This document shows, one piece after another, positions 1 to 62,490 of a stretch of 64,000 nt of DNA; the stretch's first letter is position 1, and each line of letters opens with the position of its first letter. Position numbers and translations under genes: made by a program. The notes beneath the pieces were generated by a model. The model saw nothing but the letters and a program-made list of their open reading frames with translations, had not been told where the DNA came from and ran no database searches. The stretch lies in NCBI GenBank assembly GCA_001972305.1, contig BDDD01000171.1:361882-425881 (forward strand). Reading direction: 5' to 3'. Origin of the DNA: Cephalotus follicularis (Eukaryota; Streptophyta; Magnoliopsida; Oxalidales; Cephalotaceae).

Positions 1-1293
1 TGAGTAGATTCCCCTTGATGTTCTCCAAGCCTCAGGAACAGCAAGTAATCCAACCAGCAATTACAAAGTGCTTGAACTCACTCTCTCTCTCACTTAGCTT
101 AGAAAAGGAATATTGATTATGACCAATGAAGTCAATAATAAATCCACCCTAGATAAGCCTTTGCTTGGTGTTTATCAAAAGAAGGAACACTCAGTCTGCA
201 GAGAAATTTCGAGTTCTTGCCCAGCAAAAAATGTCTTCACCTCTCTTTTACATTTTCTGCAGAAATGCTTATAACTAGCCTACAATTCTCTCTCCCAATC
301 TCCCGTTCACTTAGGATCATGGCCTTCACTCCCTGCGAGTCCGAAGCCATGATTCCCACGTTTCTAAAACGTTGAAAATCGAGAGAAACCGGCAAAGGAT
401 GTGAGAGAAGTAGTGCCCACGATTTGAGCTTGTGCACAAGATGCACGTTCTGCTCAAAGACGTCGATGTCTTCCAAAAGACGTCGACGCCTATGCAACGT
501 GGCACTAAAGCACATCGATGCTTTCTAAAAGACATCGACGTCTTTCTCAGATAAAAGCATCGACGTCTTTCTAAAAGACATCGACGCCTTTTGGCCAGTC
601 AAGCATAAAGAGTCTAACTCTTTTAGAGATCTCGTGTATCCTTCGAATATTGGTTAAGTAAGATCAGACATATGTGTTTCCACAAAATGTAAAATCCACA
701 CAACCGATATTTGACACCTAGACTTAATATGTCCAACATGTTAAAGATCTAATCATTATAAGGCAGGGACCCTTTAAAATCTTGGTTAGATCGATAGGTG
801 TTCACAAATTATCGAAATACCCCTAGGGTTCGGTTTAGCCATTCTAAATTATCCCAGACCATTTAAATGCTCTCGGAATAATATCTAATATTATCCAGAT
901 GGAAAAATTTAATCTAATTAATTTTACCATAATTTATTACACACCTCATTAACCCTAGATTTTCTAAGTCGTCGGTTCGCGTGTACTATAATTCCTTGTC
1001 ATACTTGGCCCTGATTGAGGTCTATGGTAAGGATATGTGTCAACCCTAGATAGTACCTCAATAGCTAAAATATCTGATCATTACTAGGACCTTTGGTAAA
1101 CTCTCCGAAAATCTAATTTCCAGTCCACCTCAACCTTGGCCAAGGATTTCATAAGTCCAAAGTATAATCAGACAATAATAGGGCCGATCACCTTCGCTCA
1201 GGTGTGACGATCCCTTATTGCGCACTCACTTGTATTCGTATAGATTCGATCATACCCAAAGACCACCCGATTGCCAGCCCTGCGTAAGGACTG
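1..1293 (-). repeat. Copia-C left (3') LTR, truncated at both ends
   Basis: Collinear with the right LTR: 1-546 matches 2986-3530 and 1140-1293 matches 3531-3683. Bases 547-1139 are present only here, so the right copy carries a deletion of about 593 bp. After about 1293 the sequence leaves the LTR and continues as leader. The palindrome array at 456-591 lies inside this LTR. No gene is seen; the short ORFs on either strand are unrelated to any known coding domain. Confidence 0.8.
456..591. repeat. GTCGAC-core palindrome array (Copia-C left LTR)
   Basis: Six copies of a near-palindrome with consensus AAAGACGTCGACGTCTTT. The TCGA cores start at about 463, 483, 515, 535, 560 and 581, so spacings are 20, 32, 20, 25 and 21 bp. 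Most deviations are CG to CA or TG. Confidence 0.85.
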
Positions 1294-2688
1294 GGCGGTG
1301 CCCAACACCGACGTTGACATAATATCCCCAAGTCATCAGCCTCAGCTAGGGCATGACAAACCAACAACCCAGGAACCCTACTCAACGAAAATTGTGGAAG
1401 GCCACGGGAACCACTCCATGGGTTCCTACGTTGAGACTTATTATTGTAATGAGGGAATTTGCGGTCTCATGTTTTAATTACCAAGCCATTTATTAATTCA
1501 TTGGTTATATTAGCCAATTTCAATTAATTACGTCTTATCATGCAAGACGATTATCTTATGCACCTTGGACATATTTCTAAAATATGTCAATGGATTGGTC
1601 AGGACAAAATTAGTAATGACTTGAGCCCAAAGTCACTACTAGGTCTTCCTAGGTGTAAAAATTTAAATCTATTTATTACAACATTAACCATGCATACATG
1701 ACCTTCAAAAGTCTTGTACTCCATATCTCCTTTCCTATATCTCTCCTTGCAAGGTCTTCTTTTACAAAAGGAACAATACATTTTCGAAAAGGAAAAATTA
1801 CATTTAAAATTACAAGGAGAAATTACAAAGGTAAGGAAAAAAAATGGTGCACGCAGGCACCTTATTACAGACCTTTAAAGATAATAAATAAATAAATAAA
1901 TCCATTCACACAAAGAAAACCTTAAACTAGGTCAAAGTCCTTTTCGGGCCATCCATTGTGCATAAGATCTATATTATATCCAATATAATAAAAAAAACAC
2001 AAATAAAACAAATGCCATAAATGATAACCAATTACACAATTTAATTCAATGATTGTTAATTGATCAAACTCCCACTAAATCAAGCAATGATTTTTAATCT
2101 TCCAAGTGCCAAAATGTATAACATCCAATTTTATCAAAAACAGTTTTTTTTTTTTTATAAAAGACGTCGACGCCTTTCCAAAAGCATCGACGTGTTTTCT
2201 GGAAAAATATGAACAATGCATCAATGCAAAAACAGAGCATCAATGCGTTTCTCAAGAACAGTTGAAAAAGGCATCGACGTCTAACAAGAACATCGACGCG
2301 TTTCACAAAGTATGAACAAGACATCGACGTCTATAACAAACGTCGATGTCTTTACTGGGAATTTGAACATGACATCGACGTCTACCAAGGACGTCGACGT
2401 CTTTAGCCTCCTGGGCATTTTCTGCATTTCGAAAAATGCTAAATTCAATGGTTTAGACTATGGAATACCATACTGGCATTCCAAAATGCACTATGCATGT
2501 TCCAAACTTAATTCTAAACACATTTAAACAGCATTCCCAGCGTTAAAACACAATGAAATCCAATTTCATGCAAATTTCATTAAGGCACTTAGAAAATTTA
2601 GTTTGATCACAAAAACACATCCGATGATTAAACTATTAATCAGTACATCATCTAAGGCATACATATTCAATTAAGGACGATGTGGGAC
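1294..2688 (-). other. Copia-C untranslated leader (PBS-proximal part of the internal region)
   Basis: Read on the minus strand from the PBS, this matches the long leaders of the plus-strand Copia elements in the same order: a palindrome array, a segment ending in GTGGGAGTTT (around 2064), the stretch around GGATATAAT and GGGCC (around 1940-1990), GACTTTTGAAGGTCATG (around 1700) and GTGGCCTTCCACAATTTTCG (around 1400). It stops before the gag start, and nothing coding remains. The central part (1480-1900) is AT-rich and otherwise featureless. Confidence 0.7.
2159..2404. repeat. GTCGAC-core palindrome array (Copia-C leader)
   Basis: At least eight units, some degenerate, with cores starting at about 2167, 2187, 2240 (degenerate), 2274, 2293, 2324, 2343, 2375 and 2394. 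The last five intervals are 19, 31, 19, 32 and 19 bp. The array lies downstream of the PBS, so it would be transcribed. Confidence 0.85.
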
Positions 2689-2700
2689 GCTCTGATACCA
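2689..2700 (-). other. Primer-binding site, tRNA-iMet type (Copia-C)
   Basis: The plus strand reads GCTCTGATACCA, the reverse complement of TGGTATCAGAGC. It is separated by one base from the LTR that starts with TGTTGG at 2702. This fixes the element's orientation as minus. Confidence 0.9.
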
Positions 2701-2701
2701 C

Positions 2702-4276
2702 TGTTGGAATCGGATATACCGAGTCCGGTACCAAAATGGACTTAGGTGTGAAGGGTGTAGAATAAAAGTTTAAACATACAATCATGGCAGCGGAATAACA
2801 CCCTATATAACGAAACCAATCCATAATGGCACGTCCACAGACCACATGGATCACCACAACAACAACAGAATTGAATTGGTATCACCATTGCAAACAATGA
2901 TGACACACAAGCATGGCATAAGGAAGAAGGACCAAGAATTTATACCAGCGGGTGAAGGCTCCTTCTTTCTTTGCCGCTACAAGCTTGAGTAGATTCCCCT
3001 TGATGTTCTCCAAGCCTCAGGAACAGCAAGTAATCCAACCAGCAATTACAAAGTGCTTGAACTCACTCTCTCTCTCACTTAGCTTAGAAAAGGAGTATTG
3101 ATTATGACCAATGAAGTCAATAATCAATCCACCCTAGATAAGCCTTTGCTTGGTGTTTATCAAAAGAAGGAACACTCAGTCTGAAGAGAAATATCGAGTT
3201 CTTGCCCAACAAAAAATGTCTTCACCTCTCTTTTACATTTTCTGCAGAAATGCTTATAACTAGCCTACAATTCTCTCTCCCAATCTCCCATTCACTTAAG
3301 ATCATGGCCTTCACTCCCTGAGAGTCCGAAGCCATGATTCCAACGTTTCTAAAACATAGAAAATCGAGAGAAACCGGCAAAGGATGTGAGAGAAGTAGAG
3401 CCCACGATTTGAGCTAGTGCACAAGATGCACATTCTGCTCAAAGACGTCGATGTCTTCCAAAAGACGTCGACGCCTATGCAACGTGGCACTAAAGCACAT
3501 CGATGCTTTCTAAAAGACATCGACGTCTTTCCCAAGGATTTCATAAGTCCAAAGTATAATCAGACAATAATAGGGCCGATCACATTCGCTCAGGTGTGAC
3601 AATCCCTTATTGCGCACTCACTTATATTCGTATAGATTCGATCATACACAAAGACCACCCGATTGCCAGCCCTGCGCAAGGACTGCGTAAGGTGGAGATC
3701 AAAGCATAACCGTCTCCATACAATATAGAGTAGTCGCTCAGGTCTTAGAATCAGACGAGTTTAAGAACTCGTTAAGTGATCATCACTTATACACAACCGC
3801 AACTAATAGAAGTCACTACTGACACGAAAATAGCGGCTCTCCGAACAGTGTCTCCTACGCGGGTCCTGTTCAGTGTACACGCTCCCAGCGTGCACCCCGT
3901 ATTTGCCCTAGTGTCCAACACAGATGGTAGTGAGAGAATCCATCCTCCAATTCCATGAGCAGGCAACATACGTGCAAGTCTATCGGGTTCACTAATGCCC
4001 ACAAAGTGAACCTATGACTTGGAACTAACTTGACATAAGGAATAAGGTAACCAATCTCACAGCCTCCATGCTAGGCATTCATCCTTATGTCAGGGCATCA
4101 CAAGTGTAAGCAGGTAAATAATTAACTACTTCAATTAAGTGATAAAACACAAGTGATATAGCCATAACAAAATTAGCACGCATCATATATATATATAAGG
4201 AATAAAATTGTTTCATACAAGATAAGATATAATGTGACAACCCATCTGATGGCTTGTCGGGTCACTATATCTAACA
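2702..4276 (-). repeat. Copia-C right (5') LTR, with an internal deletion
   Basis: Runs TG...CA (TGTTGGAATC to ATATCTAACA). Near 3530 it lacks about 593 bp that the left copy retains. It contains a short (TA)n run near 4187-4196. No gene is seen. The segment around 3776-4000 resembles other Copia LTRs in the window in antisense (CCC.AGCGTGCACCCCG, AGTTCCAAGTC). Confidence 0.8.
3441..3530. repeat. GTCGAC-core palindrome array (Copia-C right LTR)
   Basis: Four units with cores at about 3448, 3468, 3500 and 3520. Spacings are 20, 32 and 20 bp, the same as the first four units of the left LTR. The deletion in this LTR begins immediately after the last unit. Confidence 0.85.
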
Positions 4277-5674: not shown

Positions 5675-6357
5675 TGTTGGAATTGGATGTCCCTGCAAGC
5701 CACAAGAGGCTACATGTACACTCTGATTCAACGTCAGTATGTCCACATAGGACCACAACAGTCAGTATGTAGTGCCGCCAACTCCTGGCCCCATGCTACA
5801 CTCCCACTCTGGTCCCCACTTCGGGCAACCGAGCGAGGCAACAGTACAGTGAGTCACCTAGCCATGCTCCTGGCCCCTAGGTACAACCCTACCACTAGTC
5901 GGCGCTGGCAGCCTCCGCCATGCAACTAGTAGCTCAAACACAAACACATAGCAATTCACAGAGCAAACAGTGAATCCAAACAGTAACAGTACAGTAAACA
6001 GTAATGATCGTTTAGATCGACAACAGGCAGTTGTTTTCCAAAATGTTTTCAAAAGTGACAACATTTGAAAATAGACATTTTCAGTAGAAAATACCTTTAA
6101 ACAGTTTCAGTAGGGTAAATTGTTTATCAGTTCAGTCGAAAATACGTTATTTAACCAATACATACTTTCATACTCAAAATATCATATTCCGAGTTCATAT
6201 ATGCATTTCTAAATATCAATACTTTAGAAATCATAAACAATTCACAACAGTATACAATCAGGCAGTAAACAGTACATATGCAATGCATACAAATGCTCAA
6301 ACGCATCCTAGCGGGAATCGGGATCGTTTCGCATCGTTTTAGGCAAACAGCAGTCCA

Positions 6358-6620
6358 ATCCAGTCGACTGGAATTCTCACCAGTCAACTGTTCTGGGTCG
6401 AGCAGTATGAGTAGTCGACTGGTTCCATCTACCCGTCGACTGTCCATTAGGCAGTCGGCTGTTGTTCTTCAACAGTCGACTGTTCCAGTACTCACACATG
6501 AGAAAATTCCCAGATTTCCATTTTCTGGGCAGTAGGAGGTATGAGTAGTCGACTGCTTTCCACTGGCAGTCGACTGGAATCAATGAGTAGTCGACTGTCT
6601 TGCTTCGATAGTCGGCTGCT
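6358..6620. repeat. CAGTCGACTG palindrome array (distal array)
   Basis: About ten copies of CAGTCGACTG or one- to two-base variants (CAGTCAACTG, CAGTCGGCTG, GAGTAGTCGACTG) separated by roughly 10-20 bp. The array lies about 1.1-1.4 kb from the LTR start at 7743. Confidence 0.9.
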
Positions 6621-7437
6621 CTGCAATCCAGTGGCACACCATTCGATCTAATTACTCCAACGGATCATGGTAAGCAGCTAGCTTAAGTTCAGGGACAGGA
6701 AATACAACTACAGTTGTCATATTACTCCTATAACAGTTTATCCAACATTCATTTCATCATGCAAACCAAGCCATACAAGGTTCAACATGCATGCACCATA
6801 ACCACATTGATTCTCAGTAACAAGTATAACAGCTCTTAAAACAGTAGTAATTTCGTTCTAAAACCAGTAGCTATAAGTCACATAACCAGGCATTGCAATT
6901 CATGGAACATGCAATAAGTTTAAACTCAAAATGCCCATTACAACTTCCCATACCTTTGATTCCAAGTTAGGAATCTGTAAGTCCACCTTTTTTCGTTCCA
7001 ATCAGTGGCTTTTCGAGCTCCCCAGAAGCTCCAGCTCCAATCCCAGCAGCTCCAAGAACAGCTCCCACTTTGAGCTCCAAGCCTCAAAAAATGGACAAAC
7101 ACTCTCGTTTCTCTCTTTCTTGTGGTTTCTTTCTATAATTCTCTCTGTGATTCTCAAAACAAACAGTACTAGGATGAGAGAGATGCTTGAGATGTTTTTA
7201 TGCAGAGGCTTTCCTCTCTTTTCTTCCCTCACACCTCACATGGCACTAAATGCCACACTCCCCCTTCACATGCAAGCACACACTCACAGAGGCAATTTCT
7301 CTGCCCCAGGAAGTATTGCATGAACCACAGGTGTCTCTTCTCTCCATCCTCTCGGCTGCATGAAGCATAGGTGGCCTCCTCTTCCCATGTCAGTTATAAC
7401 ATGTGATTCCCTGTCACATGCAATAAACAGAGCATGA

Positions 7438-7592
7438 TCCAGTCGACTGCCCTTTCCTGGCAGTCGGCTGTTCGCCTGGCAGTCTGTTGCCAAGTGTCAC
7501 GACAGTTGGCCAGTCGACTGGTTCATCCCACCAGTTGACTGCCCCCATATGCAGCCATCCAGTCGACTGGTCCTACATACCAGTCGACTGCC
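7438..7592. repeat. CAGTCGACTG palindrome array (proximal array)
   Basis: About seven copies or variants, with cores near 7443, 7464, 7514, 7535, 7563 and 7584 at mostly 21- or 28-bp spacing. The array lies about 150-300 bp from the LTR start at 7743. Confidence 0.88.
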
Positions 7593-9925
7593 CCAGCAAT
7601 TTTACCAAGCAATCACACTTCAAAGTATATAATTGATCAAAATCAACACCACCATAATTTGGGAAACATCATCATATTATTAATTCCACAATAAAGTACA
7701 TTTACATTGTGAATTACAATACATAAAAATCTCGGGCGTTACAATTACGCTTGCTCCCAAGGAGGGAGGATGGATCATCTCATGGACCATTCGGTATTAT
7801 CCTAAAGCTAATGTGGGGTGTGTGCGCTATTGCATAATGCTGAACAGACCCACCAATAGGATCCCTATTTGGATAGTCTATACCCATGTCAATAGGGGTT
7901 CCTATGGTCTCGGTAGTGTATAGTCATGGTGACTAGTACGTCCACACCTACGATGTTCCTTTGACCTGAGCAGCTAGCATGCATTGTGTGGGGACTGCTT
8001 GACTTTGATTTCCGCCTTCCCCAGCACTAGCCACGTGCTGGCAAAAGGGTTGTCTTTGGGTCTTGTGGAAGATGCATTGAGATGTACAAGAGAGCGCGTA
8101 ATAAGGGATCGTCACACCCGGGCAGAGGGTGACTAGCTCTATTTGATCTGTGTACATTTTAGACTTTAAAGTCCTGATCAGGCAAAGGTGAACTGGAAAC
8201 GAGAGGTTTTCGTGGGAGGCCTGCCGTTAGTCTCAGTGCATTCACGGATTTTATAGCATCACGACTAAATCTAAGGGTGACATTCATCCAAACCATAGAC
8301 CGTTGATCGGAGCTAAGTATGACAAGGGAAACACTACACATATGCTGATGACTGGAGAAAGTGACTGGCTATTCGGTCCCTGATTGATAGACGTGGTAAT
8401 ACACGGATCCGGGGGGTGACTGGAAATCACACCGAGGCTATTCTAGTAGTCGGTGACTATTAAAGTAGTCGTACCAGATGACGGGGTGCTCTGGGAATTT
8501 ATCATCATACTGGAGATCGACAAGCTTTCGGGTCCCGCCCGATTATTGGACAAGTGAGGTATGCTGCACACATGCTCGCTTGGTGGTAAATCTAGTTTTT
8601 AACTAGCATATATTAATTAGACATTTGTGGTTTGTTCCTCTCTCCACCATTTGCCTTATTGATATATTAAGAGAATTAATGTCGGAACATGATTTAATTT
8701 TATTAAATCAAATTAATTGAAGAGAGAGTCTTTAATTAATTGGGAGAGAAGCAAATTATATTGAAAGAGATTTAAAATTTATTTAAAAGAGAGGAGACAT
8801 TTGGGACTTAAAACGAATTTGTTATTCCTTTTGTCACACACACAACAAACGCACGTCAGCATTTTTGGAAGGGGAGAAAATGCGTGAAACGCGTTCAGCG
8901 CGCAGGAGCACGCTCTGGCCAGGAGAGAAGACTGGTGCTTTGTGCCGGTGGCCGATTTAGTGGAGTCCACTCATCCTGGTATGCCTCTTCTCCTCTCTCT
9001 CCCATTTTCTCCTTCTCTCTCCCTGCTCCTCTCCCTAGCAGCAGATGCGTTTTCTGCCGCTGCTTGTTCCCAGCTCCTCTTCCACCGCCGGCGATCACAG
9101 TGGGTAGAGCCAATCAATGGCTCTATCCATTTTGATCTGAGTCTAGCTTTTCCCGGTGCATTTTTAGCCGGTTTTCGTGCATCTGAGTTGACCATGTTGA
9201 CTCAGTGGCTGTGTGCCACGACTTGGCTTTCTGGCCTGAGTCACGGTAAGTCTTGTGTTGGGTTGTGTAGACCGTGGTTTGTAGGTGCTGGTTGTGGCGG
9301 TGTGATGTCACGGCGACCCTGTCTTCGCCGGCGAGTTGACTCTCCGCCTACTATTCGCCACTTTCCACGCCGAGTCTCGCCGAGTCTCGGCCACCAGTGT
9401 GAAGATCGGGGTCCTGGCATCCACATATGTCAAGGCTGGTCAATGGCAAGTTGACCGAGACTCACTTAGTCCGAACTCAATAAGTCGCAGCCACTGTTCG
9501 TCATGTTCCGACGCGATTCTTGGCGTGTCTCGGCCAGCAATGGGTAGAGCAGAATTTTTGGAGTCCGGTTGTGTTAAGATCGGACCTAACATGGACTATC
9601 CGAAATCTGGCGATGGTACCGGTGACCGGCTGTTTCTACTGCAAGCGTGTAGTGGAAAAGTGGTGGAGCCTCCAACGTTGGTATGGTTGCTTCCCATTTG
9701 TTTTATGTTTTCCGCTATGCTTACGTTTTATGTTTTTTACGTGCATGCCTTATTTCGTAATTGTTCGATTGAATATTAAACGGAGATCCTAGGCTTTTCT
9801 ATTTGGTACTAAGATGTCAGTGTGAACCTTGACTTCCTGTCTTAGTGTTTTTCAAAAATTAAAATTATACACACTAGCGTCCTATGACCAAATTGACCGT
9901 GAACCTTTGCCAGGTTTCCAACAAG

Positions 9926-9937
9926 TGGTATCAGAGC
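9926..9937 (+). other. Primer-binding site, tRNA-iMet type (Copia-B)
   Basis: TGGTATCAGAGC, two bases after the LTR end TTTCCAACA (9923). It is complementary to the 3' end of plant initiator-Met tRNA. Confidence 0.93.
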
Positions 9938-11397
9938 CATCCACTTTAATTTCAATTGGACTTTAATTTCGGTTTTGGTGACTATTTTGGAATAATTAAA
10001 GTACCTGAAATTCTAGTTTAGTTCCCATCCCATGGTTGTTTTATAAAATAAAATATTATTTTTTGGGATACTAGGTTTTAAATAATCTAGTGGGAGGTTT
10101 ACTGGAATGTCAGTGGACTTGTGGAATTATTTCGATTGGTCATCAGAAATTGAAATTGCCTGTGTTTATTTAAAGTCTATAGTTGATATAGATTTTAAAT
10201 GTCTTATGCATGATGGTAGGCTATGGGACTGGACCTAGCTTTTGATTTCTTTTGTGGATGGTTTAATTTGCTTTATTAACTTGTGCTTTATTTGGTATGT
10301 AATATGGTTGCCTGCGAGCACCATTAATTCCTTATTTGTATTATTCTCTCTCCCTCCATTTGTATTCTATTCTTTATTTTTAAAATGTATTTTCGTAATT
10401 TCATTTTTGTAAACAAAGAAGAGAGGAATCACAAAAGTGCGAGAAGAGGAAGATCAAGGAATTTGCAAGACCAAGTGAAGGCCATGTATGCGTGGTGCAT
10501 TTTGTAATAAAGTAGATTTAAATAGTTCACCTAGGAGATGAAGTGATCACATTGGCTCGTGTGATCATTCATAGATTTAGTCCCTGGTCAGACCATATTT
10601 ATTTCTAAGAGGGAAATAGGTTGCATGATATGGATGTTTTCTTTTTACAAACAATCCAAACACGTCAAGCATGCTCAACCGTCCAAATGGATTGGAAGAT
10701 AATTAAATTTATCTAAAACGACATTGGTAAATATATAAAATTTGATGAGACCAAATTCCTCCAACTTGTGAAATAATAAGTCCATAAACGGTGGGACATA
10801 AGGCTGTCCCGTCGTTGGCCTTCCATAATTTTCGTTGAATGGTGTGGATATATTGGGGATAGCACTGCCAAAGCAGAGATCCCCCGTATGGCCATTTCTA
10901 TTCAATTTCAGTACTAGGGTAGCACTGGAAGGAAATGACCATGTTTTTTATTCTCTGACAGGCCAAAGCGTGTGGGTGTCAAAACGGGTTTATTTCTTTG
11001 AGGATTGTGGGTCTGACTTATACCGGGTTCATACTATTGGTACAGCCAAAGCTGTGGATTGTATGGGTCGTGAGGCTGAATCTTGTATCGGATCTTACAT
11101 TTCGAGGGAAGAGCCCGAGAATGTAAGTTGGTACTCATACCTACCTATTTAAGTATTACGGTTTGTTAGCCAAAGTTAAGGCTATAATATCTTGGTAGAT
11201 TCCGATCCCTCCTAGGAGGCAAGAGGCTTCCCGAGTTCCACATTGGAGGTGTGGGATACGATTAGAATAGTGGGAGGAGCCATAATTACAAAAGATCAAG
11301 GATTATTGTAATAACATAAATGGAATGATCTGTTAATATTCTCTCTCTCTTAACTCTTATAGGTTGCTAGTTTTCACATACTCAATTTAAAACTCAA
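9938..11397 (+). other. Copia-B untranslated leader
   Basis: Shares the ordered leader blocks of Copia-A: AATCTAGTGGGAGG near 10086, ATGCATGATGGTAGGCTATGGGAC near 10206, TGCCTGCGAGCACC near 10310, a GAAGGCCATG block near 10477 and GTTGGCCTTCC near 10813. It lacks the palindrome array present in the Copia-C and Copia-A2 leaders. A 106-codon open frame at 10835-11152 aligns in frame with one in the Copia-A2 leader, but no ATG is conserved. Confidence 0.65.
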
Positions 11398-12120
11398 ATG
11401 GCAAACATCAATAACAAATTCAAACACATTTGGAACTCCTAAACTTGAACATCCAATTTTCACTGAATGGAAACGCGTTTAGCATAACATTCTCACGAGC
11501 ATGAGAGGCGCTCATGTCATGACTGAGATAACCCTGAGCTAGGGAATGATGTATCCGACCATCACAAAGCCTTGGTGGTTAAGTGGTGGGACGATGATTA
11601 TCAAGCTCGTAACCTTGCATTTGTTGTCACGAAGCCACAATTTTTATGCAGGTTATGCACTCACAGACCTTATGTGTCATGCTTACACAACTTGAGGAGT
11701 TGTATGACACCCAGTCAAGGACTGTAAAGGTATATTTTGAACAAAAGAGGTCGAGATCGTCTGTGATGCCTCGATTTCCTACTTGAATAATCTCCAGGGG
11801 AGATAGATCAAGTGAATCTAAGTTCCAAAGGGTGAAAACCCAAGGAAGAGGCAGCTTGTGCAAAGGGAATTCTATTCTAGAAAAACGATTACAAGTTTTA
11901 TATGGAGTTTGCCTACTTCCATCGTGGGAAGCTAAGGAAATTGAAAGATATTGTAATATGTTCCTATAGTCCATAGATAGAGATGCTTTGTGGTAAGACA
12001 CCTCCATATACTTTATCTAGCTTATGATGTAAGTTGAGCTTGAGTAAGGAACTCAGGTTATGACACTTACATCGGTATCTCTATGCAAGGAGCTAAGAGA
12101 AGCTAGTCAGCAAGTAGCTG
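11398..12120 (+). pseudogene. Copia-B gag remnant
   Basis: Begins near ATGGCAAACATC and has many stops in all frames. A short block near 11695-11735 (TTGTATGACACCCAGTCAAGGACT) aligns with the Copia-A2 gag segment coding LYGAQSRT at about 25890. No zinc knuckle remains. Little else is recognisable, and the boundary at 12120 is approximate. Confidence 0.5.
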
Positions 12121-12650
12121 TTAAAGCTGTGGATATACGCCATAGTGATGAGTCAAGGGATTCACACATTTGTATAGGCGTAATGAATTGTTTAAATATT
12201 GTGAATGGATATATACTAAAACTGGATCGTTAAATATAAAGAATATTGTAAGAAACATTGTTTCCATTTGTATGAGATAAGCAAGGAGCTTGAATTGCGG
12301 TAATTTTTTTTCTCATACATAGCAATATTCTAGTTAGTGCAAGCGGCACATAGATGCAAACGGATCTAAGTTTTAACCATTGTATTAACAATTCAATAAG
12401 GAACATATAATAAAAGATTATTGAGAGATAATGAGACTTTCTCTCTAAATGGACATCTTCGAGGAAAAACCATGTGGAAATGGTATATCCGTACATAGTA
12501 TATGGACTTTGTGGAAAGGGTCTAGTCCATTAAATCTTTTATACATCTTCCTATCTCCTTATGGGTTAAGCATTGCACAAGGCAATACTTATCCTAATCT
12601 GGATTCCTTTGGAATTCATCCCCTCCGATATCGAGAGGATATCATGTGAT
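12121..12650 (+). other. Unrecognised internal segment of Copia-B
   Basis: Lies where the end of gag, protease and integrase core would be expected. I could not align it to the other Copia copies. It is AT-rich with stops in all frames. It may be diverged coding sequence, or filler left after a deletion. Confidence 0.3.
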
Positions 12651-14327
12651 CAAGGAGATCATAAATGGAGGAAACCCAGCCTAAACCATCAGTTGGTTAA
12701 AGGCTGTCCAACTTATATAAGAAGGTGGAAACCTTATAAGCAGGAGGCATGATCGAGACGTTGCCAGTTTGTGGAATATTCTAAGAAGTGCTTAGGATAT
12801 TATTTCTACCATCCTAGCGAACAAATATGGTTTTGTTTCGCGTACTGCAAAATTCCTATGGAAGGAATACCTGATTGTAGGAAGCAGTGGGAGTATGGTA
12901 TAACTAAGTGAGTTTCCACTAGGTAGAAACCCACAGGACGATAAGGAACTACAAGTTTATTCCTCTAAAGATATAATTGGGAAAGGATCCCAATCTGAGA
13001 TGGAATCTCGGTTAGGAACTTGTCTAGCGAGGAGATTAGGCAAGGTTTTTGACAGCGCCTGAGAAATACGGTTTTCTTAATAAAGGCACTGACGAACCTA
13101 ACGTCAGCGAGATGACGAGCCTGTCAGCTATGAGGAAGCAGTGAAGTGCACTGATTCTAGGACATGGTAAGAAATCATGAAATCCGAAAAGGACTCCATA
13201 TACGCCTACCAACTGAGGGACTTGGTATATGCACTCGAAGGCTTAAAACCCTATCAAATGCTAAGTAAATATTCCCGAGGAAGATTGGCGTTAATGGAAA
13301 AGGTTAAAAACCTTTACAGCGCAGTTAGTGGCAAAAGGGTATACACTAAGATGAGATTTGTATATACCGGGAACTTTCTTTCCAGTCGGAAATGCTTAAG
13401 CCCATTAGGATTATGCTTGCAATTGCTGCTCATTGTGGTAATGAGCTATGGCAAATGAATGTTAGGATTACCTTCCCCGAGGACTATCTTGAAGAGGACA
13501 TTGATATGTTCCAAACCAAGAAGGTTTACATTCATGGAGCATTAGCACATGGAGTGCAAAGCTCAAATGGTCTGTGTATGACCTTAAGCAAGCATCCCAT
13601 AGATGAAATATCCATTTTGATTGTATCAAATATATGGATAAGCTTAATGTCTACCAGAAACAGGATAACCTAGAAATCACTTTCTTGATACTGTATATCG
13701 ATGATGTACTATACACAAATGATGTTGTAGGTATGTTGAAGTACAGTTATGCAAGAACTTCTCCGAGAAAGGATTTGGGGAGGGCTTTCTACGTTTTAGA
13801 GAATGAAGATCTAAAGAGTAGATCGAGTCGATTGCTTGGACTTTCCCAAAGCCAGTACATCAGTAGGGAGCTGAAATGGTATGGAACGAATTCCATGTAT
13901 GGCTTATTGCCAATTAGCCAAGGAATTCACCTTTCCAAGAGGATGTCTTCTAAGACTTATGAGGAGAGGACACGCATGAATAGGTAACCTTATGCTTCAA
14001 CAATAGGCTCCATCATGTATGCCATACTTCGTACTGAGCATGATGTGGATATGCCTGAGGGTTTGGCTAATCGATTTCAGTCCAGTCCCTGTAAGAGACA
14101 GTGGGACATTGTCAAGAGGATATAATGCCTGTGAAAGATTCAGAATTATTTCTTGATACATGGAGAAGATAGTGAATTGAGACGTAAGAGTTAGGTTAAC
14201 TCTAGTTTCAATAATGATCCGAATGATCACAAATCCATTTCAGGTTATGTGTTAGTCCTAAATGGAAGTGCTGTGTGAGTGGGAAGAGTTTGTGGCAGTC
14301 GAGGACTGCAGACTCCACCATGGCACA
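12651..14327 (+). pseudogene. Copia-B pol remnant: integrase C-terminus and reverse transcriptase
   Basis: From 12655 the DNA follows the Copia-A integrase C-terminal region (the GGAAACCCAGCCTAAACCAT block, then the tail around CTATTTCTACCATCC). From about 13177 an RT (RVT_2 type) follows: a MKSEKDSIYAY block, LAIAAH near 13430, LEEDIDM near 13490 and the catalytic YxDD as LYIDDVLYTND near 13690. The RT is broken by several frameshifts and about 130 codons are badly diverged. It continues into RNase H, where the Cassandra LTR interrupts it at 14328. Confidence 0.75.
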
Positions 14328-14699
14328 TGTGACACCCCACTTAAGAGTGGCAAGAGGAAAGGGCTATCCATGAGATGAAGCCACCCTTGTGACAGGAATG
14401 AACCAGATCCATCGAAATGGGGGAAAGTATGGCTGTGCTATATAAGAAATGATCCTTGAAACTAATTACATGAGGCGCCTTTTGATGGATTGGCTGAGGA
14501 GTTAGTGTAAACTCCAAGTTTAAGCGTGCTACGCTTAGGGCAAAACCAGGATGGGTGACCTCCTGGGAAGTCTGACCAATCCATCAATTAGGACAAAACC
14601 GTGATGGTCCACGTGGAAACGCAGATGTATGGGCACTGTATGTTCTGCGTGGGACAAAAGCGGACAATCTCTCATGTGGTTAAGGATCGGGTCGTTACA
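14328..14699 (+). mobile_element. Cassandra-type TRIM solo LTR
   Basis: A 372-bp TG...CA unit starting TGTGACACCCCAC and ending GGGTCGTTACA. It is flanked by GCACA (14323-14327) and GCATA (14700-14704), a 5-bp duplication with one mismatch. It contains a 5S rRNA-like stretch and, near its end, ACAAAAGCGGACAATCT, which resembles TRIM/Cassandra LTR tails. Cassandra elements are known non-autonomous terminal-repeat retrotransposons in miniature that carry 5S rRNA sequence in their LTRs. Only one LTR is present, so this is a solo LTR. It interrupts the Copia-B RNase H region. Confidence 0.85.
14508..14575 (+). promoter_or_regulatory. 5S rRNA-derived segment with Pol III internal control elements
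   Basis: TTAAGCGTGCT at about 14520-14530 matches the A-box region of plant 5S rRNA. GGATGGGTGACCTCCTGGGA, starting at 14549, matches the intermediate element plus C box. The spacing between them is close to that in real 5S genes. The 5' half of 5S rRNA is poorly preserved, so this is not a functional 5S gene. In Cassandra this segment is known to act as an internal Pol III promoter; activity here is an inference. Confidence 0.85.
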
Positions 14700-14704
14700 G
14701 CATA

Positions 14705-15060
14705 AGAGTATGTTGCAACCTGTGATACCGCTTATGGTAGCTGATTTGGCAGCGAAAGTTTATTACAAAACTTTATGTGGTTCTATCGATCGTTATGCAG
14801 TTGTGCAGCATAAGGACGACGATGGGGCTTTGCAAAAACCAACGAAATCTGGTCTCATTACCACCCAAATACATATAGCAACGATATCATTTTGATAAGG
14901 GAGATCATATATGAATGTAACGTTTCAAAAGAGATGTTATTGAGAAATATATGAGACATCATGAGAGTAGATGTCACCATAGAGAGAGTTGCGTGGGAAG
15001 CAAACTTAGCAAACCCACTTACCAATGCCTTTAGCAATTCGATACTTGTGGGAGTCATGT
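14705..15060 (+). pseudogene. Copia-B RNase H C-terminal remnant
   Basis: Resumes after the Cassandra LTR with an AGAGTATGTTGCAACC block that parallels the Copia-A TEAEYIAA region. It runs to the ACTTAGCAAACCCACTTACC block near 15005-15025, equivalent to the ADPLTK tail of Copia pol. Several frameshifts and stops are present. Confidence 0.6.
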
Positions 15061-15100
15061 ACGATATGCATAGGCTATAAGGTCTCGTGGTTGTAGGGCC

Positions 15101-15111
15101 AAGTGGGAGAT
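15101..15111 (+). other. Polypurine tract (Copia-B)
   Basis: AAGTGGGAGAT lies directly before the 3' LTR, within the GGGCCAAGTGGGAGA context shared with Copia-A1 and A2. It primes plus-strand synthesis in this class. Confidence 0.85.
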
Positions 15112-17862: not shown

Positions 17863-17867
17863 ACTCG

Positions 17868-23892: not shown

Positions 23893-23894
23893 AT

Positions 23895-45026: not shown

Positions 45027-45197
45027 TGTAACGCCCGGTATTTTCCTGAATGTGATATTTCGATTTATGATGTAATCTTGAACTTGATTTAATGAGAATG
45101 ACAAGGTTTCAAACTCAAAAAAGGTCTCTAAACCCTAAATATTGATTAAGGATGGAATGTGTATGTCAAAAGTTTGAAACGGTGCTGTTTTTGGACA

Positions 45198-46089: not shown

Positions 46090-46182
46090 TGTGAAGACAT
46101 CGACGCCTATGTAAAGAAGTCGATGCCTTCGTGTGGATATGTGAAAGACATCGATGTCTTTTTACTGACATCGACACCTTTT
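46090..46182. repeat. GTCGAC-core palindrome array (Gypsy-3a LTR, distal)
   Basis: Four units (GACATCGACGCC, AAGTCGATGCC, GACATCGATGTC, GACATCGACACC) about 1.06-1.16 kb from the LTR start. Confidence 0.82.
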
Positions 46183-46280
46183 CTGGAAAAATCGTTGAAC
46201 TGTAATGTTCATTTCTGATGGCCATTTAAGCCACTTGGGAATCATCTGTTTGATTCCGATTTGATGTTCTGGTTATGTTG

Positions 46281-50418: not shown

Positions 50419-50589
50419 TGTAACGCCCGGTATTTTCCTGAATGTAATATTTCCATTTATGATGTAATCATTAAACTTGATTTAATGAGAATGTTGAGTT
50501 TTGAACTCAAAAGATGCTTGCAAACCCTAATTATGACTTTGGAAATGGGATGTGTATGTTAAAGCTTGAAACGGCAACGTTCTGGGACA

Positions 50590-50746
50590 AAGACATCGAC
50601 GTCTTTGGAAAAGACGTCAACGCCTTTGGGAGCCAGGGCATACGTGTTTGAAGGGACATGCACGTCGACAACGGAAGAAGGCATCGACACCTTCTTACAA
50701 AATGAAAAAGACATCGACGTCTAAGGAAAGACGTCGACGCCTTTAT
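50590..50746. repeat. GTCGAC-core palindrome array (Gypsy-3b LTR, proximal)
   Basis: Cores near 50596, 50617, 50665, 50684, 50714 and 50734; spacings 21, 48, 19, 30 and 20 bp, identical to Gypsy-3a. Confidence 0.9.
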
Positions 50747-51040
50747 AAGAATGGCCAGCACGTTCTTCGTCGGCAGAATAACATGCAAGGAGAATTGTTT
50801 AAGGGCTTTACCTAAAGCCTTTTCAAGTGCGATTCGACGTGTTGGGCATATCTGTGTACTAACCAAGGGCACTAAAACCTAACCTCACATGGAACATGCA
50901 AGGAATTATGCCATCCTAACATGCAACCTGCAAAAGGATGGTTAGGAAATAAAAAGAAATGCAGAAAAAGAGAAAGTGGGAGAGATCTAGAGTGTGGTTG
51001 TTAGATGACAGAAGAAGGGTGTTAGGTGGGAGAAATCTGC

Positions 51041-51049
51041 ATAAAAATA
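51041..51049 (+). promoter_or_regulatory. TATA-like element of the Gypsy-3b LTR
   Basis: ATAAAAATA in the context ATCTGCATAAAAATAACCCT, followed by a CT-rich stretch. An equivalent context occurs at 45646 (Gypsy-3a) and 40484 (Gypsy-1). It lies between the proximal and distal palindrome arrays, about 620 bp into the LTR. Promoter function is inferred. Confidence 0.45.
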
Positions 51050-51476
51050 ACCCTCCCCACCTATCTCTCTCGTTTCATAACACCAGAAGAAAACAGTGAG
51101 TGTGTGTATGCCATTGTTGAGCTTGGAGCTTGGACCTTGGAACCACTGGTGCAGCTACGGGAAGGACCTAGAGAGGCTGCTGTGACCTGTTTGGATTCTA
51201 AAAGAGGTGGACTTTCCAGTTCCTAACTTGGAACAACAAGGTAAGGGAAAATGATGAATTTATATGTGCATTTTGAGTTTTAAGTTAATGTATAGCATGG
51301 TGAATTACATGTTAATGATTGGATTGAGATTCTGGACTTGTTGAAGTGTTACTGTGATGCACTGAGAATATTATGCATGTTTGGTTACATGAATACGTGT
51401 GTTGCTGGTGTAAAGGATTGATTTGGAAATGGCTTGGTGTGTTGAAATTGTGGAAAACACATTCTGTGTTGCAAAA

Positions 51477-51515
51477 GACATCGACGTCTTTTGTAAAGAC
51501 ATCGACTCCTTTTCT
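51477..51515. repeat. GTCGAC-core palindrome pair (Gypsy-3b LTR, distal)
   Basis: AAAGACATCGACGTCTTTT and AAAGACATCGACTCCTTTT, about 1.06-1.1 kb from the LTR start. A further pair (AAAGACATCGACGCCTTA, GACATAGACGTCTTT) lies at 51726-51765. Confidence 0.8.
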
Positions 51516-52254
51516 GGGGAATTATAGAACTGTGATGTTAATTCGAATGGCCATTTAAGCCACTTGAGATCGTCTGTTTAGTTTCAATTTGATGTTATGG
51601 TTATGTACACATTAACCAGTAGCATACCTTATACGTTTATGGAGTGAGATTCGTTGTTATGACGGATTAAAAGGTTGGGTTTTACCTCAAGAATCAAGGT
51701 TGCGAACTGATACTCTCTAGTATGAAAAAGACATCGACGCCTTAGGGAATGACATAGACGTCTTTCCTCCTGGACAGTAGAATTTCGCTTGAATGGGACC
51801 CGTTAGACCCGAAACAACTCTAGAAACGAACCTAGATGCATTCCGAGCATATGTTTGCATTGTTACTATGATTTGCATTATGGTGGCTTTCCTAAAAGTG
51901 TCAAACCATTTTGAAAAAGCTTGCATGATTATTATGATCATTTAGGTACGAAAATGTATATTTGTCAACACATGAATTTATATATTTTAAAAATGTTTGG
52001 GGAAGTATTTCCAAAGACAGAGAACTGATTTAAAAATTTGATTATGAAATCAAAGGTAATTTGAGAAAGTGTACTATTTACAAAATATATATTTTCGAAA
52101 TGATTGGGGAAGTAATTCCAAAGACAGAGAAATGTATTGTTTTAAGTTATGACTTATTACAACTTGTGAACGGAAAAATATATTTTTAACAAATATATTT
52201 GATCAAGTAATTATATGTAATTGCTTGACTTGTACTGTGAAATGCTTGTGCTTG

Positions 52255-57643: not shown

Positions 57644-57648
57644 ATCGT

Positions 57649-57740: not shown

Positions 57741-59119
57741 CAATCTGTAACACCCCCGATGATGGGAACCCTTACAGGTCACAATACCAAACTGAAACAT
57801 AACGAAAATCTAAACAAGAGACTGATACGAAACGAATGTGGTGGTCTGAAAGCATATATTATAACAATTGATTTAAACAAAAGCTGAAATTTTAAACAGT
57901 CATAAATAAAAACGAATCCAAATCCGATATCCAAATACGGAAATCATAACTGAAACAAAAACCAAAGTCTGAAACTGTTTCTAATGAAAACTAATCCGAT
58001 CCTACTGGAAAACACAAGATCCAACTCCTAGCTGATACTCTGACAAGCGGGTAATTCTCATCACACGTTTCCCCCATCCTTCTGAAAACCTGCCGCATAG
58101 AAACAAATGCGGCTGAGCAAACCTCAGTACGGATAAGGAATTAAAACAGTAAACGATAAACAAAATAATTTGAACTTTAAATTCAGTAAAGTAACATAGT
58201 AAATATTCTTGAAAAGTAAAACAGAATATTTAAAAACGAGCAGTTATAAAATCATCATAACTTACGAAAAACATAATATCATAATGCAAAACATTATCTG
58301 ACTTATAATTCCATAACAGAGAATTTCTGACATACATACATATATAGGTGCAAGGGGTTCGCGAGACCCACATGCTCTGACGGAAAAGTCATGTACGGCA
58401 CTACACAAACAATCCCAATACTGAATACTGAATTCTGTCAATAACTAGAGTATACTCATACGCCTCAAAAGGATCCATATCCTACCCTCATGATACATAT
58501 TTAAAAGAGACGCCGTAGACCGATCACACCGCCATGGTAGGTGTCATGTCCTCCGTGCCAAAGAACATGCCTATGATACCTCATAGGTAGGGTTTTTCTC
58601 TGTATGTTATTATGCTAAAAACATTGTTTTAATCTAAAACAATTTTAACAATTTCTAAACAATTTCTGATCTTATCTGAAAACAAAATCTTAACTATATC
58701 TGAAGTTAACATACTCCGAAAGTGGAAGCCATGTTAATATTTTTTATATATATAGTGAGAAACACGCAGATGAAAACCCATATCCGATGTAACAATACTA
58801 AAATTCATTTAGATAAGATTATTACCAAAACGAGAATATCCGTATCAAAACACGAGTTTTATTGCTAATAAAACGAGGAACATAAATCCATTCGATAAAA
58901 CGTACAAAATCATCAGTTAATGAAAGTTTAATCGAAGAAGGAGTACCAAAGAATGAAGAATCCGTACCTTAGCTTATCGAACAATCTAAACAAATACGAA
59001 TACCGGACAAAAGTATCCTAGAAGTGTCCTAGACTCCACCAGGAATGATATTAAGACCTAAACATACGAGTCCAGACATCATATTGCATAAAAGAAATCA
59101 AAACATCAAACCTGTCATA

Positions 59120-59252
59120 AAGCATCGACCGTTTGTTCCTTGGCGTCGACGGTTTAATAGCAAAAAGGGACAAAGCGTCGAGCCAAGAGTCGACAGACTA
59201 AGGCATAAAACAACACAAAGCGGCGACGGTTAGAACTAAAGCGTCGACGGTT
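59120..59252. repeat. GTCGAC-core palindrome array (Gypsy-2 right LTR, distal)
   Basis: Same array as 42228-42362, with unit differences such as AAGCATCGACCG against AAGCGTCGACCA and GCGTCGAGCC against GCGTAGAGCC. Confidence 0.85.
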
Positions 59253-59859
59253 TGAGTCAGACACAGCATACCAACAGCAGAAAGTAGTTTCAATTTCATG
59301 AATAATCCGATTTTTGATAAACACAATGCATAACTAACAACATTTAGGTTCAGTGACATGTTATATTACTTCAAAAATGCCAGAATAACCTTATGATTTC
59401 ATACAGAGAGTAAAATCCATTTTGAAACCTAATTTTTTTTTTCTTCCATATAAATAGTTTATGCAACCATAACAAAATTTTAAATTTCTTTTGTTTAAAT
59501 CCTAAAACCAGTGACATATACATATAGCTACCTTCGTCAATAGTATAATTTCTTTGTTTTTAAGGATTAACATCACTAGTTATGCATAAAACTCATGAAT
59601 GAACATATAAAAACAACAGCAGAATTTAGTTTTAACAAGCTCCCAAAATCATGCTCTAGATCATGTTATAGTCGTTTTAAGACGATTTTGTCTGGTTAAT
59701 GTACAAATCCACATTTTAATTGTCAAAATCAGTATATTAGGACATTACCATACTAACCAAAACGCGTCTAACACTTAAGGAAATCGGATAGCCAGAAAAA
59801 GGAAAGAAGTCAACCTTCCAAAAATACTGTCACCGTCCAAACTGATATGGAAAGCCGAA

Positions 59860-59998
59860 CAAAGCGTCGACTGTTTACTTAAAGCATCGACGGTTAAGCA
59901 CATAAATACAAAACGCGTCGAAGTCACACGTTTAGGCGTCGACGTGCCACCCAGCAGCCAAAGCGTCGGCGGTTCTAAAGAGAGCGTCGGCGCTTTGT
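59860..59998. repeat. GTCGAC-core palindrome array (Gypsy-2 right LTR, proximal)
   Basis: Same array and spacing as 43115-43258. Units differ between the two LTRs by CG to CA or TG changes (for example AAGCATCGACGG against AAGCGTCAACGG). Confidence 0.87.
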
Positions 59999-60135
59999 GC
60001 CCAGAAAATAACAAAAATAACATAACTCAAGCAAAATAAAAAAGGTCCACAAACCATAGCATAAATCAAAAAGGATATGATGCCAAACAATAAACATATA
60101 AACATGTCATCATAGAAACGGGATATTACAGATAC

Positions 60136-61089
60136 TATGTTATACTGGATGTGTAATATGATGTTGCATGCCGGTTTTCTGGGCTTTATACATGTTGGAT
60201 TGCATGTTATTATGGTGAAACTGTTACTGGTTCATCATGTCACGAGGAAGAAGACGACTGACGCTAGAAACCATCGACGCCTTAGGTAAGCGTCGACGCT
60301 TTGTACTGTGAACTGCGTTTTATATACTGAATGCGTTTAAACGTCGACGCCTATAGGAGGAGACATCGACACTTAAGAACTGGAAGCGCTGACGCTAAAG
60401 GACTGAACGTCGACGCTTAAAGGACATAAGCGTCGATGCCTAAGAAAAAGACATCGACGCTTTAGAGTCCTGTTTGGACTGGTTTTACGATTTTGACACC
60501 CGACAACCCCGATTTCGCTTAGGGTACATTCGAGCATTTGTATGCATTGCATATGTACTGTTTACTGACTATTTATTGACAGATTATAAAATGTTTATGA
60601 TTTCTAGATTACTATGTTAATTTAGAAATGCATATGTAAAACTGAAAATGACTATTTTAAGTACAAAATAGATATTTGATAATAACATATTTTCGAACAA
60701 ACTGGGAAAGCGATTTCCACCTACTGAACTGTTTAAAAGTATTTTCCGCTACTGAAAATACATATTTCAAATGTTTATGACTTTCGAAAACAGTTTAGTT
60801 TTGTTTTAAGGACTACTGATGTACCGTACTTTTGGCTTTGTTTATCGATGGGTTTTAATATTGTATTATGAATCACGCTCCGTTTATGGGCTTTTAACAA
60901 TGACAAACTTGTATTGGGTAGCGTGCAGAATGGGACGCACGTTACGTGTTTTTCAGCTTATGAGTTTAAATGCTTCCGCAACTGTTATCTTACTTGAAAA
61001 GTTTAAGTTTTATGATTTTTGCATGAGCTGAATCTTCATGTTAATTGCCTTACCACTTTATATCTATTTCTCGAAAGCGGGGTGTGACA
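60136..61089 (+). repeat. Gypsy-1 3' LTR, second part
   Basis: Resumes after Gypsy-2 and ends GGGGTGTGACA, followed by AGTCA (61090-61094). It lacks about 690 bp near 60798 that the 5' LTR retains. A hairpin equivalent lies at 60918-60945. The ORF at 60819-61031 is LTR sequence. Confidence 0.88.
60268..60466. repeat. GTCGAC-core palindrome array (Gypsy-1 3' LTR, distal)
   Basis: Cores near 60274, 60293, 60344, 60366, 60390 (degenerate), 60410, 60433 and 60454. It lies about 1.07-1.26 kb from the LTR start after subtracting Gypsy-2. Confidence 0.88.
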
Positions 61090-61094
61090 AGTCA

Positions 61095-61858
61095 TGTTGG
61101 TAAAATACGGATTTATAGATACCGACATATCTAGGGTTGACACGTATCCTTACCCTAGGCTGTGATCGGAGCCAAGGATGACGAGGGATTATAGTAACGG
61201 TAACTGTCGTCGGGATAAAGTATCTAATGTATCAAAAACGGACTTAACTGTGGAAATTAATCAATGGATTAATTTACACACATGGAATATGCTAGGCATA
61301 GGTTCAAGGTCTTAAAAGTATCAAGGACTATTTATGGTAAGTTTACTTAAGTCCAAGGCGTCTTAGTAACATACCATCGTTACCGATTAATTCTGGACTT
61401 TCTGGTCCCGCCTCATGAGTATATGTATTAGATACATATATCGTATTGTTTTATAACGTGTGATGGCACATGTTATATCGTGGTGTATTAGTGTTGTTAC
61501 GTGACTGGTTAGTTGACATAATATACTAATATGTTTTCTTGTATTAATGCATAATTGTATTATGTATTTCTCTAATCTCTCATTCTCTCTACATGTTTGT
61601 TGCATGGCTACTACATGGATGAAAGAATACATGCACGTCTATTTTTGGAAGATAACGTGTCTTCCTTGCATGGACATTTCGTATGTCACTCAAACAGCTT
61701 TGGTAAAGCCTTGAGTCATTCATTATGGCGCCAAAGAAAAGGAAATGTGATCTCTATTTGTGGAATGGAATCACTTGGCGCGTTTTCTCGTATGGCAGCC
61801 TCAATCATGATCCACAATTGGTGGATCTCTACTCTGCATGCATGAGTGCATAAAGAGC
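61095..61858 (+). repeat. Copia-A2 3' LTR, second part, 3'-truncated
   Basis: Matches about 22615-23374 of the shared LTR and continues exactly from 30421. The match stops at GCATAAAGAG (61858), so the last 520 bp or so of the LTR are missing. Confidence 0.85.
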
Positions 61859-62490
61859 AAGACAACCCCAAGGATGCATGGCCAAGTGTTGAAATCTACA
61901 CTAAATCACTCTAGGTGTAGATAAGATGCAGTGTACAAGTTATCTCCACCTATTATGACCTTTGGGTGGTGAAAGGAGGGTCAAAAATGGATGCAAATCG
62001 CACCAGGCGACGTAGGCGTCAATGCGTACGCAAGCAGGAAGAAGAGAATGCACAGCAAGGAAGAGAGAGAAAGAGGAAATCTCAAAGTGTGTTCGACAAG
62101 CTTCTCTTAATCTATTTACAGTGTTGACTTTCTCTCTCCAACAAACCCGCGCATCAGCCTATCAAGGCGTCAACGCCATGTGTCTCATCTTATCTAGGCG
62201 TCAATGCAAATGATAGGATGAAACATGCACCCAGTCTCGTTTGTCTTCGCGTCGACGTGTAAACAACACAGCGTCAACACGTAAAGCTACTGGTTTTTAA
62301 ATTGTCAATGCCATGCTCTCCATAGCGTTAACGTCCAGCAGCCTTTTCTAGTTATGGCATCGATGCATGCTCTTCATGGCATCAACGTTTAAAGCTACTT
62401 GTTTTGTCAGCGTCAACGCCTAGCAACTCAACTAGACATGGCGTCGACGCATGCTCTTCATGGCGTCGACGCCTAAGACAATAATGAGAC
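61859..62490 (-). repeat. Palindrome-rich segment, probably part of the following minus-strand LTR
   Basis: Not alignable to the other elements in this window. From about 62000 it contains many degenerate units of the form GGCGTCGACGC or GGCGTCAATGC. The ORF at 62022-62213 overlaps this array and is not credible as a gene. Confidence 0.5.
62000..62475. repeat. GTCGAC-core palindrome array (right edge)
   Basis: About twelve units, for example GGCGTCAATGCG near 62010, AAGGCGTCAACGCC near 62163, GCGTCGACGTG near 62250, GGCATCGATGC near 62357, GGCGTCGACGC near 62440 and again near 62461. This is the most degenerate array in the window, with many CG to CA or TG changes. Confidence 0.75.

Follow-up and report, generated by a model that had tools for sequence, protein, structure and literature searches.

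Clusters of TCGA-core palindromes in Copia and Gypsy long terminal repeats of Cephalotus follicularis, putative sites for a symmetric DNA-binding protein

Results

The stretch of Cephalotus follicularis DNA analyzed here (64 kb of contig BDDD01000171.1, positions 361,882 to 425,881; hereafter the window) consists of nested plant long terminal repeat (LTR) retrotransposons, as judged from self-alignment and target-site duplications (TSDs), and carries repeated clusters of short palindromes with a TCGA core. Copia gag/pol sequences were identified by Pfam domains PF14223 and PF07727 and Gypsy gag/pol by PF03732 and PF00078, with chromodomain PF00385 in one element. Copia el1 (TSD ACTCG) lies inside Copia A, as does Gypsy G1 (30422-61089, TSD AGTCA), which in turn holds the solo LTR GS (TSD ATATG) and Gypsy G2 (40852-60130, TSD GATAC); sequences of G3 and G4 are enclosed by the two G2 LTRs, and the window ends are formed by Copia-C and Copia-D, both on the minus strand. 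Ten families were counted (Copia C, A, D, and el1; Gypsy G1, GM, GS, G2, G3, and G4), with Copia-D, GM, and G3 being partial copies of uncertain boundaries.

A sequence-only reading of the window had claimed that TCGA/GTCGAC-core palindromes cluster in both Copia and Gypsy elements, and the counts bore this out. Near-palindromes centered on TCGA (half-length 7, at most one mismatched pair) numbered 36, compared with 3.1 +/- 1.7 in 20 dinucleotide shuffles, and a looser rule gave 54 compared with 6.6 expected. None of the other cores among the 16 tested matched this excess; CTAG reached 8 against 2.8, and TATA-cored perfect palindromes were also raised (16 against 5.1 at half-length 5 and 7 against 1.1 at half-length 6). 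A strict class of seven 8-mers, picked after the data had been seen, comprised 81 sites, against a mean of 3.0 and a maximum of 8 in 100 dinucleotide shuffles, and 64 of these belonged to groups of at least three sites within +/-125 bp (self included), compared with 0 in every shuffle. Four of the strict sites stand alone and the others make up 18 clusters of at least two, compatible with the "at least nineteen arrays" proposed earlier. Duplicate LTR copies inflate all of these counts, and a nonredundant set, from which the G1 5' LTR array, the G2 3' LTR, and the 3449-3521 copy were dropped, retained 69 of the 81 strict sites. When k-mers were ranked against a second-order model with no motif assumed, CGTCGA, GCGTCGAC, and CGTCGACGCC headed the 6-, 8-, and 10-mer lists, with 33 occurrences of GCGTCGAC against 0.41 expected. 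Because both the shuffles and this unbiased ranking speak against it, production of the arrays by composition or chance is rejected at the scale of the window, and we regard its probability as negligible.

The sites are confined almost entirely to noncoding control regions. LTRs of array-bearing families (21.4 kb) hold 66 of the 81 strict sites and two Copia leaders (1.4 kb) hold 13, for a total of 79, with 2 in the remaining 30.7 kb; the LTRs of Copia A, el1, and G4 (10.5 kb) contain none. By our own count, arrays occur in eight of the ten families, el1 and G4 being without, so that "nearly every LTR family" was an overstatement. Assignment of the arrays to LTRs was correct for most, but two Copia arrays (about 2168-2395 and 24120-24268) lie in the leader past the primer-binding site (PBS). 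Strict sites per LTR number 11 in GM, 10 in the G1 3' LTR, 8 in GS, 4 to 5 in G2, 5 in G3, 4 in Copia-D, and 4 to 6 in Copia-C, which has 8 more in its leader.

Gypsy LTR arrays occupy two places, approximately 157 to 316 bp and 884 to 1377 bp from the LTR start; GS has the second position only, and in the G1 5' LTR both are fused. At the LTR start, G1 aligns with GM (first 67 bp) and with G3 (first 73 to 130 bp), short blocks near 740 to 875 align G3 with GM and with G1, and a block right after array II is, by eye, common to G1, GM, and G3b. As these LTRs align outside the arrays and carry them at two homologous positions, the array positions in G1, GM, and G3 look inherited, and inheritance rather than convergence would explain the location. 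Among Copia elements, the LTR array of C and D lies approximately 1.3 to 1.5 kb from the LTR start (in C after allowing for an approximately 590-bp deletion in one copy), and the leader arrays lie approximately 225 to 375 bp (A) and 295 to 520 bp (C) past the PBS. The LTRs of Copia-D and el1 are 79% identical along a stretch of approximately 1.2 kb that ends at the array edge, but strict sites are lacking in el1, indicating that arrays are gained or lost between relatives.

Boxes fall into two separate groups, AGTCGACT and CGTCGACG with its CpG-decay forms. The former is found in Gypsy only, where the GM and GS LTRs account for 18 of its 19 sites and the remaining one stands by itself in the coding sequence of G1 (33350), whereas all 22 perfect copies of CGTCGACG lie outside GM and GS. 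Since AGTCGACT is confined to Gypsy, only the CGTCGACG group is common to both superfamilies. Of the sequences that the earlier reading quoted, CAGTCGACTG was found in 13 exact copies, AAGCGTCGACGGTTT in 2, and AAGCGTCGACGCTT in 1, but the perfect 18-mer AAAGACGTCGACGTCTTT was absent from the window, its motif occurring solely as near-palindromes such as AAAGACATCGACGTCTTT. Within the CGTCGACG group, AAAGAC...GTCTTT arms are common to G3 and Copia-C and GCGTCGACGC-like arms to G1, Copia A, and Copia D, while G2 boxes are asymmetric; the two subtypes are poorly separated (0.66 to 0.69).

Box likeness between families was measured over 18 bp, and flanks were taken as 12 bp on either side, which may overlap an adjacent box. 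Copia-C and G3, the strongest case across superfamilies as judged by sequence, have boxes 0.82 to 0.85 identical in three array pairs with flanks 27 to 36% identical, near chance. Box identity is 0.71 to 0.72 between G1 and Copia A and 0.65 between G1 and Copia D; the AGTCGACT type reaches 0.44 to 0.52 with the others, which we estimate to be about what the fixed core alone would give. Flanks are 0.24 to 0.37 identical between families in the comparisons made, and inside one array boxes are 65 to 89% identical with flanks at 18 to 40%. The proposal that spacers are not conserved between families was upheld, and the likeness of Copia-C and G3 boxes with flanks near chance argues against one shared satellite.

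Mismatches in the near-palindromes fit CpG deamination. The ratio of CGTCGATG to CATCGACG on the sense strand is 8:2 in Copia-C, 0:7 in G3, 0:3 in Copia A, 2:0 in G2, and 4:4 in G1; this bias, present in all but G1, led us to reject CpG decay as the sole source of near-palindromes, and copying of units probably adds to it. The observed/expected CpG ratio is 1.40 in arrays and 0.64 elsewhere, with an array G+C content of only 0.47 and a motif that itself contains CpGs.

Spacing is regular. In the nonredundant set, 25 of 41 neighbor distances of up to 60 bp fall at 19 to 23 bp, with one at 12, none at 13 to 18, and the remainder grouping near 32, 42, and 51. The approximately 20-bp spacing also holds for the CAGTCGACTG type, whose 10-bp boxes would allow tighter packing. 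All-pairs distances (n = 119, with G3b array I dropped too) fit best to a period of 10.55 bp (R, 0.35), a value driven by the 20-bp class. Between the separately inserted LTRs G3a and G3b (overall likeness, approximately 77%), identity is 87.5% in motif columns, 73.6% in spacers, and 80.3% in the remainder; computed from these rounded percentages, P is 0.0014 for motifs versus spacers and 0.048 for motifs versus the remainder. By contrast, three alignments from the G1 and G2 LTR pairs, whose divergence postdates insertion, show lower conservation in motifs than elsewhere (pooled P = 5e-5), the pattern expected of CpG-rich DNA that decays once inserted. This difference suggests selection on the G3 motifs while the elements were active, in one family only.

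Table 1. Array-bearing and related features of the window
Feature	Position	Strand	Remarks
Copia-C 3' LTR array	463..584	-	6 strict sites, AAAGACRTCGAYGTCTTT type
Copia-C leader array	about 2160..2404	-	8 strict sites; ~295-520 bp downstream of PBS 2689-2700 (minus)
Copia-C 5' LTR	2703..4276	-	Start TGTTAG, end CCAACA; array about 3448-3521
Copia el1	5676..17863	+	TSD ACTCG; LTRs 5676-9924 (split by GM) and 15112-17863; own LTRs array-free
GM, truncated or solo Gypsy LTR	5735..7743	-	Array I 7443-7585, array II 6364-6592; CAGTCGACTG type
Copia-A LTR	21823-23892	+	No strict site
Copia-A leader	23893..24290	+	PBS 23895-23906; array about 24119-24268
Gypsy G1 5' LTR	30422..32048	+	Single fused array 30620-30731, lacking the sequence that separates arrays I and II
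GS solo LTR	36014..39147	+	TSD ATATG; array 37187-37384, CAGTCGACTG type
Gypsy G1 3' LTR, first part	39915..40851	+	Array I 40113-40202
Gypsy G1 3' LTR, second part	60136..61089	+	Array II 60274-60455; LTR split by G2 insertion (TSD GATAC)
Gypsy G2 (chromodomain) 3' LTR	40852..43383	-	Array I 43120-43193, array II 42231-42351
Gypsy G2 5' LTR	57746..60130	-	Array I 59867-59940, array II 59125-59245
Gypsy G3a LTR	45027..46280	+	Array I 45204-45343, array II 46100-46152; AAAGACATCGACGTCTTT type
Gypsy G3b LTR	50419..51800	+	Array I 50596-50735, array II 51481-51502, site 51734
Gypsy G4	52134-57643		LTRs without array
Copia-D LTR, 5' part	62240..63782	-	Array 62252-62467, ~1315-1530 bp from LTR start

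Discussion

On balance we favor, by a modest degree, the reading of the arrays as cis-regulatory clusters of boxes belonging to plant LTR retrotransposons, putative sites for a symmetric DNA-binding protein. Enrichment, restriction to noncoding control regions, dyad symmetry, approximately 20-bp spacing, and boxes that are alike with spacers that are not were all observed directly; the symmetry, a spacing of about two helical turns, the contrast of boxes and spacers, and the confinement to control regions fit clustered sites for such a protein. Each array would thus offer multiple predicted binding sites to a symmetric, probably homodimeric, sequence-specific protein, placed in Gypsy and Copia LTRs and, for some Copia elements, in the 5' leader, and the bound protein would regulate retrotransposon transcription. 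The same or related factors would serve Copia and Gypsy. The earlier suggestion that convergence on one core implies a shared factor is sensible insofar as Copia and Gypsy boxes are similar while their flanks are near chance, which makes a shared trans-acting factor a reasonable reading, but it does not extend to the array location in G1, GM, and G3, which looks inherited. The ACGT boxes of bZIP proteins were rejected as an explanation, as they would suit the GACGTC type only.

Several observations weigh against this interpretation. Beyond 25 bp, helical periodicity is weak: R is 0.24 for periods of 10 to 11 bp (P = 0.016 by a jitter null), and the period that fits best is 9.35. The conservation test covers 144 motif columns from a single family, and its result is marginal when motifs are compared with the remaining LTR sequence. 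In the Copia-C LTR pair, which was not pooled and behaves oppositely to the G1 and G2 pairs, 72 of 72 motif columns are identical, compared with 97.1% of 415 elsewhere. TATA boxes were not found consistently near the arrays, and no promoter was located in the window. Finally, pieces of eight arrays fold at z scores of -2.1 to -9.3, compared with 0.15 and 0.78 for two control stretches, a result that would also fit a role as RNA.

A bolder proposal, which we hold only tentatively and think rather doubtful, is that Copia and Gypsy independently built arrays for the same TCGA-palindrome factor and that related Gypsy LTRs switched all boxes, in both arrays, from CGTCGACG to AGTCGACT. Such a switch is what would be expected of an arms race, or if paralogous factors whose half-site preference has shifted were captured. 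If true, a concerted change of box type between related LTRs would provide a natural series for studying the coevolution of control sites and binding proteins, and, if one factor serves unrelated superfamilies, a large part of the genome's repeats could be activated or silenced under the control of a single protein.

The claim that no described element matches these arrays did not hold, as Sirevirus "repeated motif" (RM) boxes (Bousios 2010, PMC2829016) are of the same kind and would have in the present arrays a TCGA-core counterpart. According to that source, RM boxes are likewise palindromic and LTR clustered, with the box kept while the flanks diverge; they are CpG rich, with CpG-island character, a trait that the present arrays may share, and two of those listed are TCGA centered (ACAATCGATTGT in Tnd-1 and CGGTCGACCG in Vitis). 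In some Sirevirus elements a second cluster lies outside the LTR, before env; here, the second cluster lies in the Copia leader. The same text reports RM boxes as Sirevirus specific, with at least 8 copies per element, a CGG-CCG core in 12 of 13, and a conserved TATA box shortly after the cluster. Our arrays, unlike these, occur in Gypsy and non-Sirevirus Copia, have a GTCGAC core without CGG-CCG, and are often of fewer copies. Palindromic boxes with dyad symmetry are LTR clustered here as well, though not in Copia A, which has a leader array only; eight copies per LTR are reached by GM, the G1 3' LTR, and GS, the others often falling below. No array core carries the CGG-CCG signature, the listed CGG-CCG matches lying outside the arrays.

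The polypurine octamer AGGGGGAG, which in Sireviruses lies 10 bp before the 3' LTR in several copies, was found at no Copia LTR in the window, its sole exact occurrence being at 7258 (minus) inside the GM LTR. The polypurine tracts of el1, A1, and A2 (15102, 21813, and 29612) read GTGGGAGATT; those of Copia-C and Copia-D were not located. The PBS TATCAGAGC is present at 2689 (minus), 9929, and 23898 but also in Gypsy (32056 and 53078) and at 62748 and is therefore not diagnostic of Sirevirus. Given the lack of AGGGGGAG at Copia LTRs, the presence of arrays in another superfamily (Gypsy), and copy numbers often below eight, the arrays are best regarded as a variant of RM boxes rather than as members of that class. 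Palindromic LTR boxes would thereby extend beyond the Sireviruses, to which PMC2829016 restricted them.

In maize, the palindrome CACCGGACNNNGTCCGGTG is reported to outnumber every other motif in the structured regions of Copia as well as Helitron elements (PMC10760457). There, as here, one palindrome is common to unrelated superfamilies within one genome, although the sequence differs and Copia is paired here with Gypsy rather than with Helitron. Among the matches listed from the open-license literature (titles and abstract openings), no description of GTCGAC arrays in Gypsy LTRs was found. The Tnt1/Tto1 U3 boxes, the HTLV-1 21-bp repeats, and the Su(Hw) insulator of Drosophila gypsy are familiar cases in which sites for a binding factor are repeated in the U3 of the LTR or in the leader; these involve other sequences and factors and one element family each.

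Three alternatives to the favored reading merit weighing. The arrays may act as RNA, forming hairpins in LTR or leader transcripts that feed small-RNA production or packaging, as proposed for the palindromes of maize Sireviruses. Sirevirus palindrome regions are small-RNA hotspots (PMC5311732 and PMC10760457), and the sense strand folds better than the antisense in all four Copia arrays (by 4 to 27 kcal/mol). However, any palindrome cluster folds well, the sense strand is favored in 6 of 14 arrays tested (only 2 of 10 in Gypsy), and the 20-bp spacing is left unexplained. In sense RNA, moreover, 7 of 12 G3 units would have A facing C instead of forming a G-U pair, although pairing of one unit with another could offset this. 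An RNA hairpin as the main function lacks support across families and is kept as a rival; we judge this alternative unlikely, though possibly an extra role in Copia. Strand folding also divides the superfamilies as an observation in its own right.

The arrays might instead bind a transposon-encoded antisilencing factor resembling VANC of VANDAL transposons, which unrelated elements exploit as well. VANC target motifs (PMC5735166) share dense short arrays in noncoding transposon DNA, family- or lineage-specific variants, and use by an unrelated element (AT9TSD1, with VANC6 motifs), and they offer the nearest functional analogy for concerted motif change. The homologous arrays of the Gypsy relatives GM and G1 differ (box identity, 0.45 to 0.51) while Copia-C and G3 share a variant, as such a system might produce. 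Yet VANC systems belong to DNA transposons with a known element-encoded binder, and VANC21 motifs are nonpalindromic, in one orientation, and often tandem (PMC5735166), whereas those in the window are palindromes with spacers that barely repeat, and no VANC-like gene was found among the 20 of 28 open reading frames (ORFs) of at least 150 codons scanned with Pfam. This account therefore strikes us as quite improbable. Descent of all arrays from one satellite or tandem duplication, moved between elements by recombination or template switching, would agree with the tandem stretches of 20- to 22-bp units that TRF finds in places, with the unit copying suggested by orientation bias within Copia-C and G3, and with a deletion in the G1 5' LTR whose junction lies in an array unit. 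Boxes that are alike while flanks are near chance, both between families and within arrays, argue against it, and alignable spacers between arrays were not found; we give it very little credence. An ancient transfer with later selection acting on the boxes alone would still be compatible with these data. Palindromes at insertion targets were also considered and rejected, being a slight preference, averaging 5 to 6 nucleotides, at insertion sites rather than arrays (PMC6911290).

Other observations on the window

The G1 5' LTR lacks approximately 950 bp between arrays I and II (compared with 39915-40851/60136-61089), and the position of the junction within an array unit indicates that boxes apparently served as a recombination substrate. 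The array-free el1 LTRs each have two far-spaced CCGGTGACCGG-like palindromes (8946, 9620, 16895, and 17559), with a CGG-CCG core like that of Sirevirus boxes. Copia A1 and A2 (17864-30421) are apparently tandem with one common LTR (21823-23892), in the order internal-LTR-internal, and Copia-C (1-4276) is apparently internally deleted, its leader being joined straight to mid-LTR sequence near 1301-1304. The G4 LTRs contain a 30-bp tandem repeat in 3.2 and 4.2 copies (52253-52369 and 56796-56942).

Of the 20 ORFs scanned, 17 have retrotransposon domains and 3 have no match, and Rfam at gathering score gave 0 matches over the window. The first ten matches of the G2 gag-protease came from Asteraceae and Apium (46 to 55% identity over 77 to 95% of the query); in the protein searches, the 7999 to 8000 candidates sharing most words were scored, the second search covering the best 120 of 7611. 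The named matches were angiosperms, except for one in the second search that was labeled Bifidobacterium. None of 40 viral-contig stretches picked by two motif patterns aligned to the window (blastn, 1e-4), and four of them (L013, L014, L020, and L028) contain at least three sites in 250 bp.

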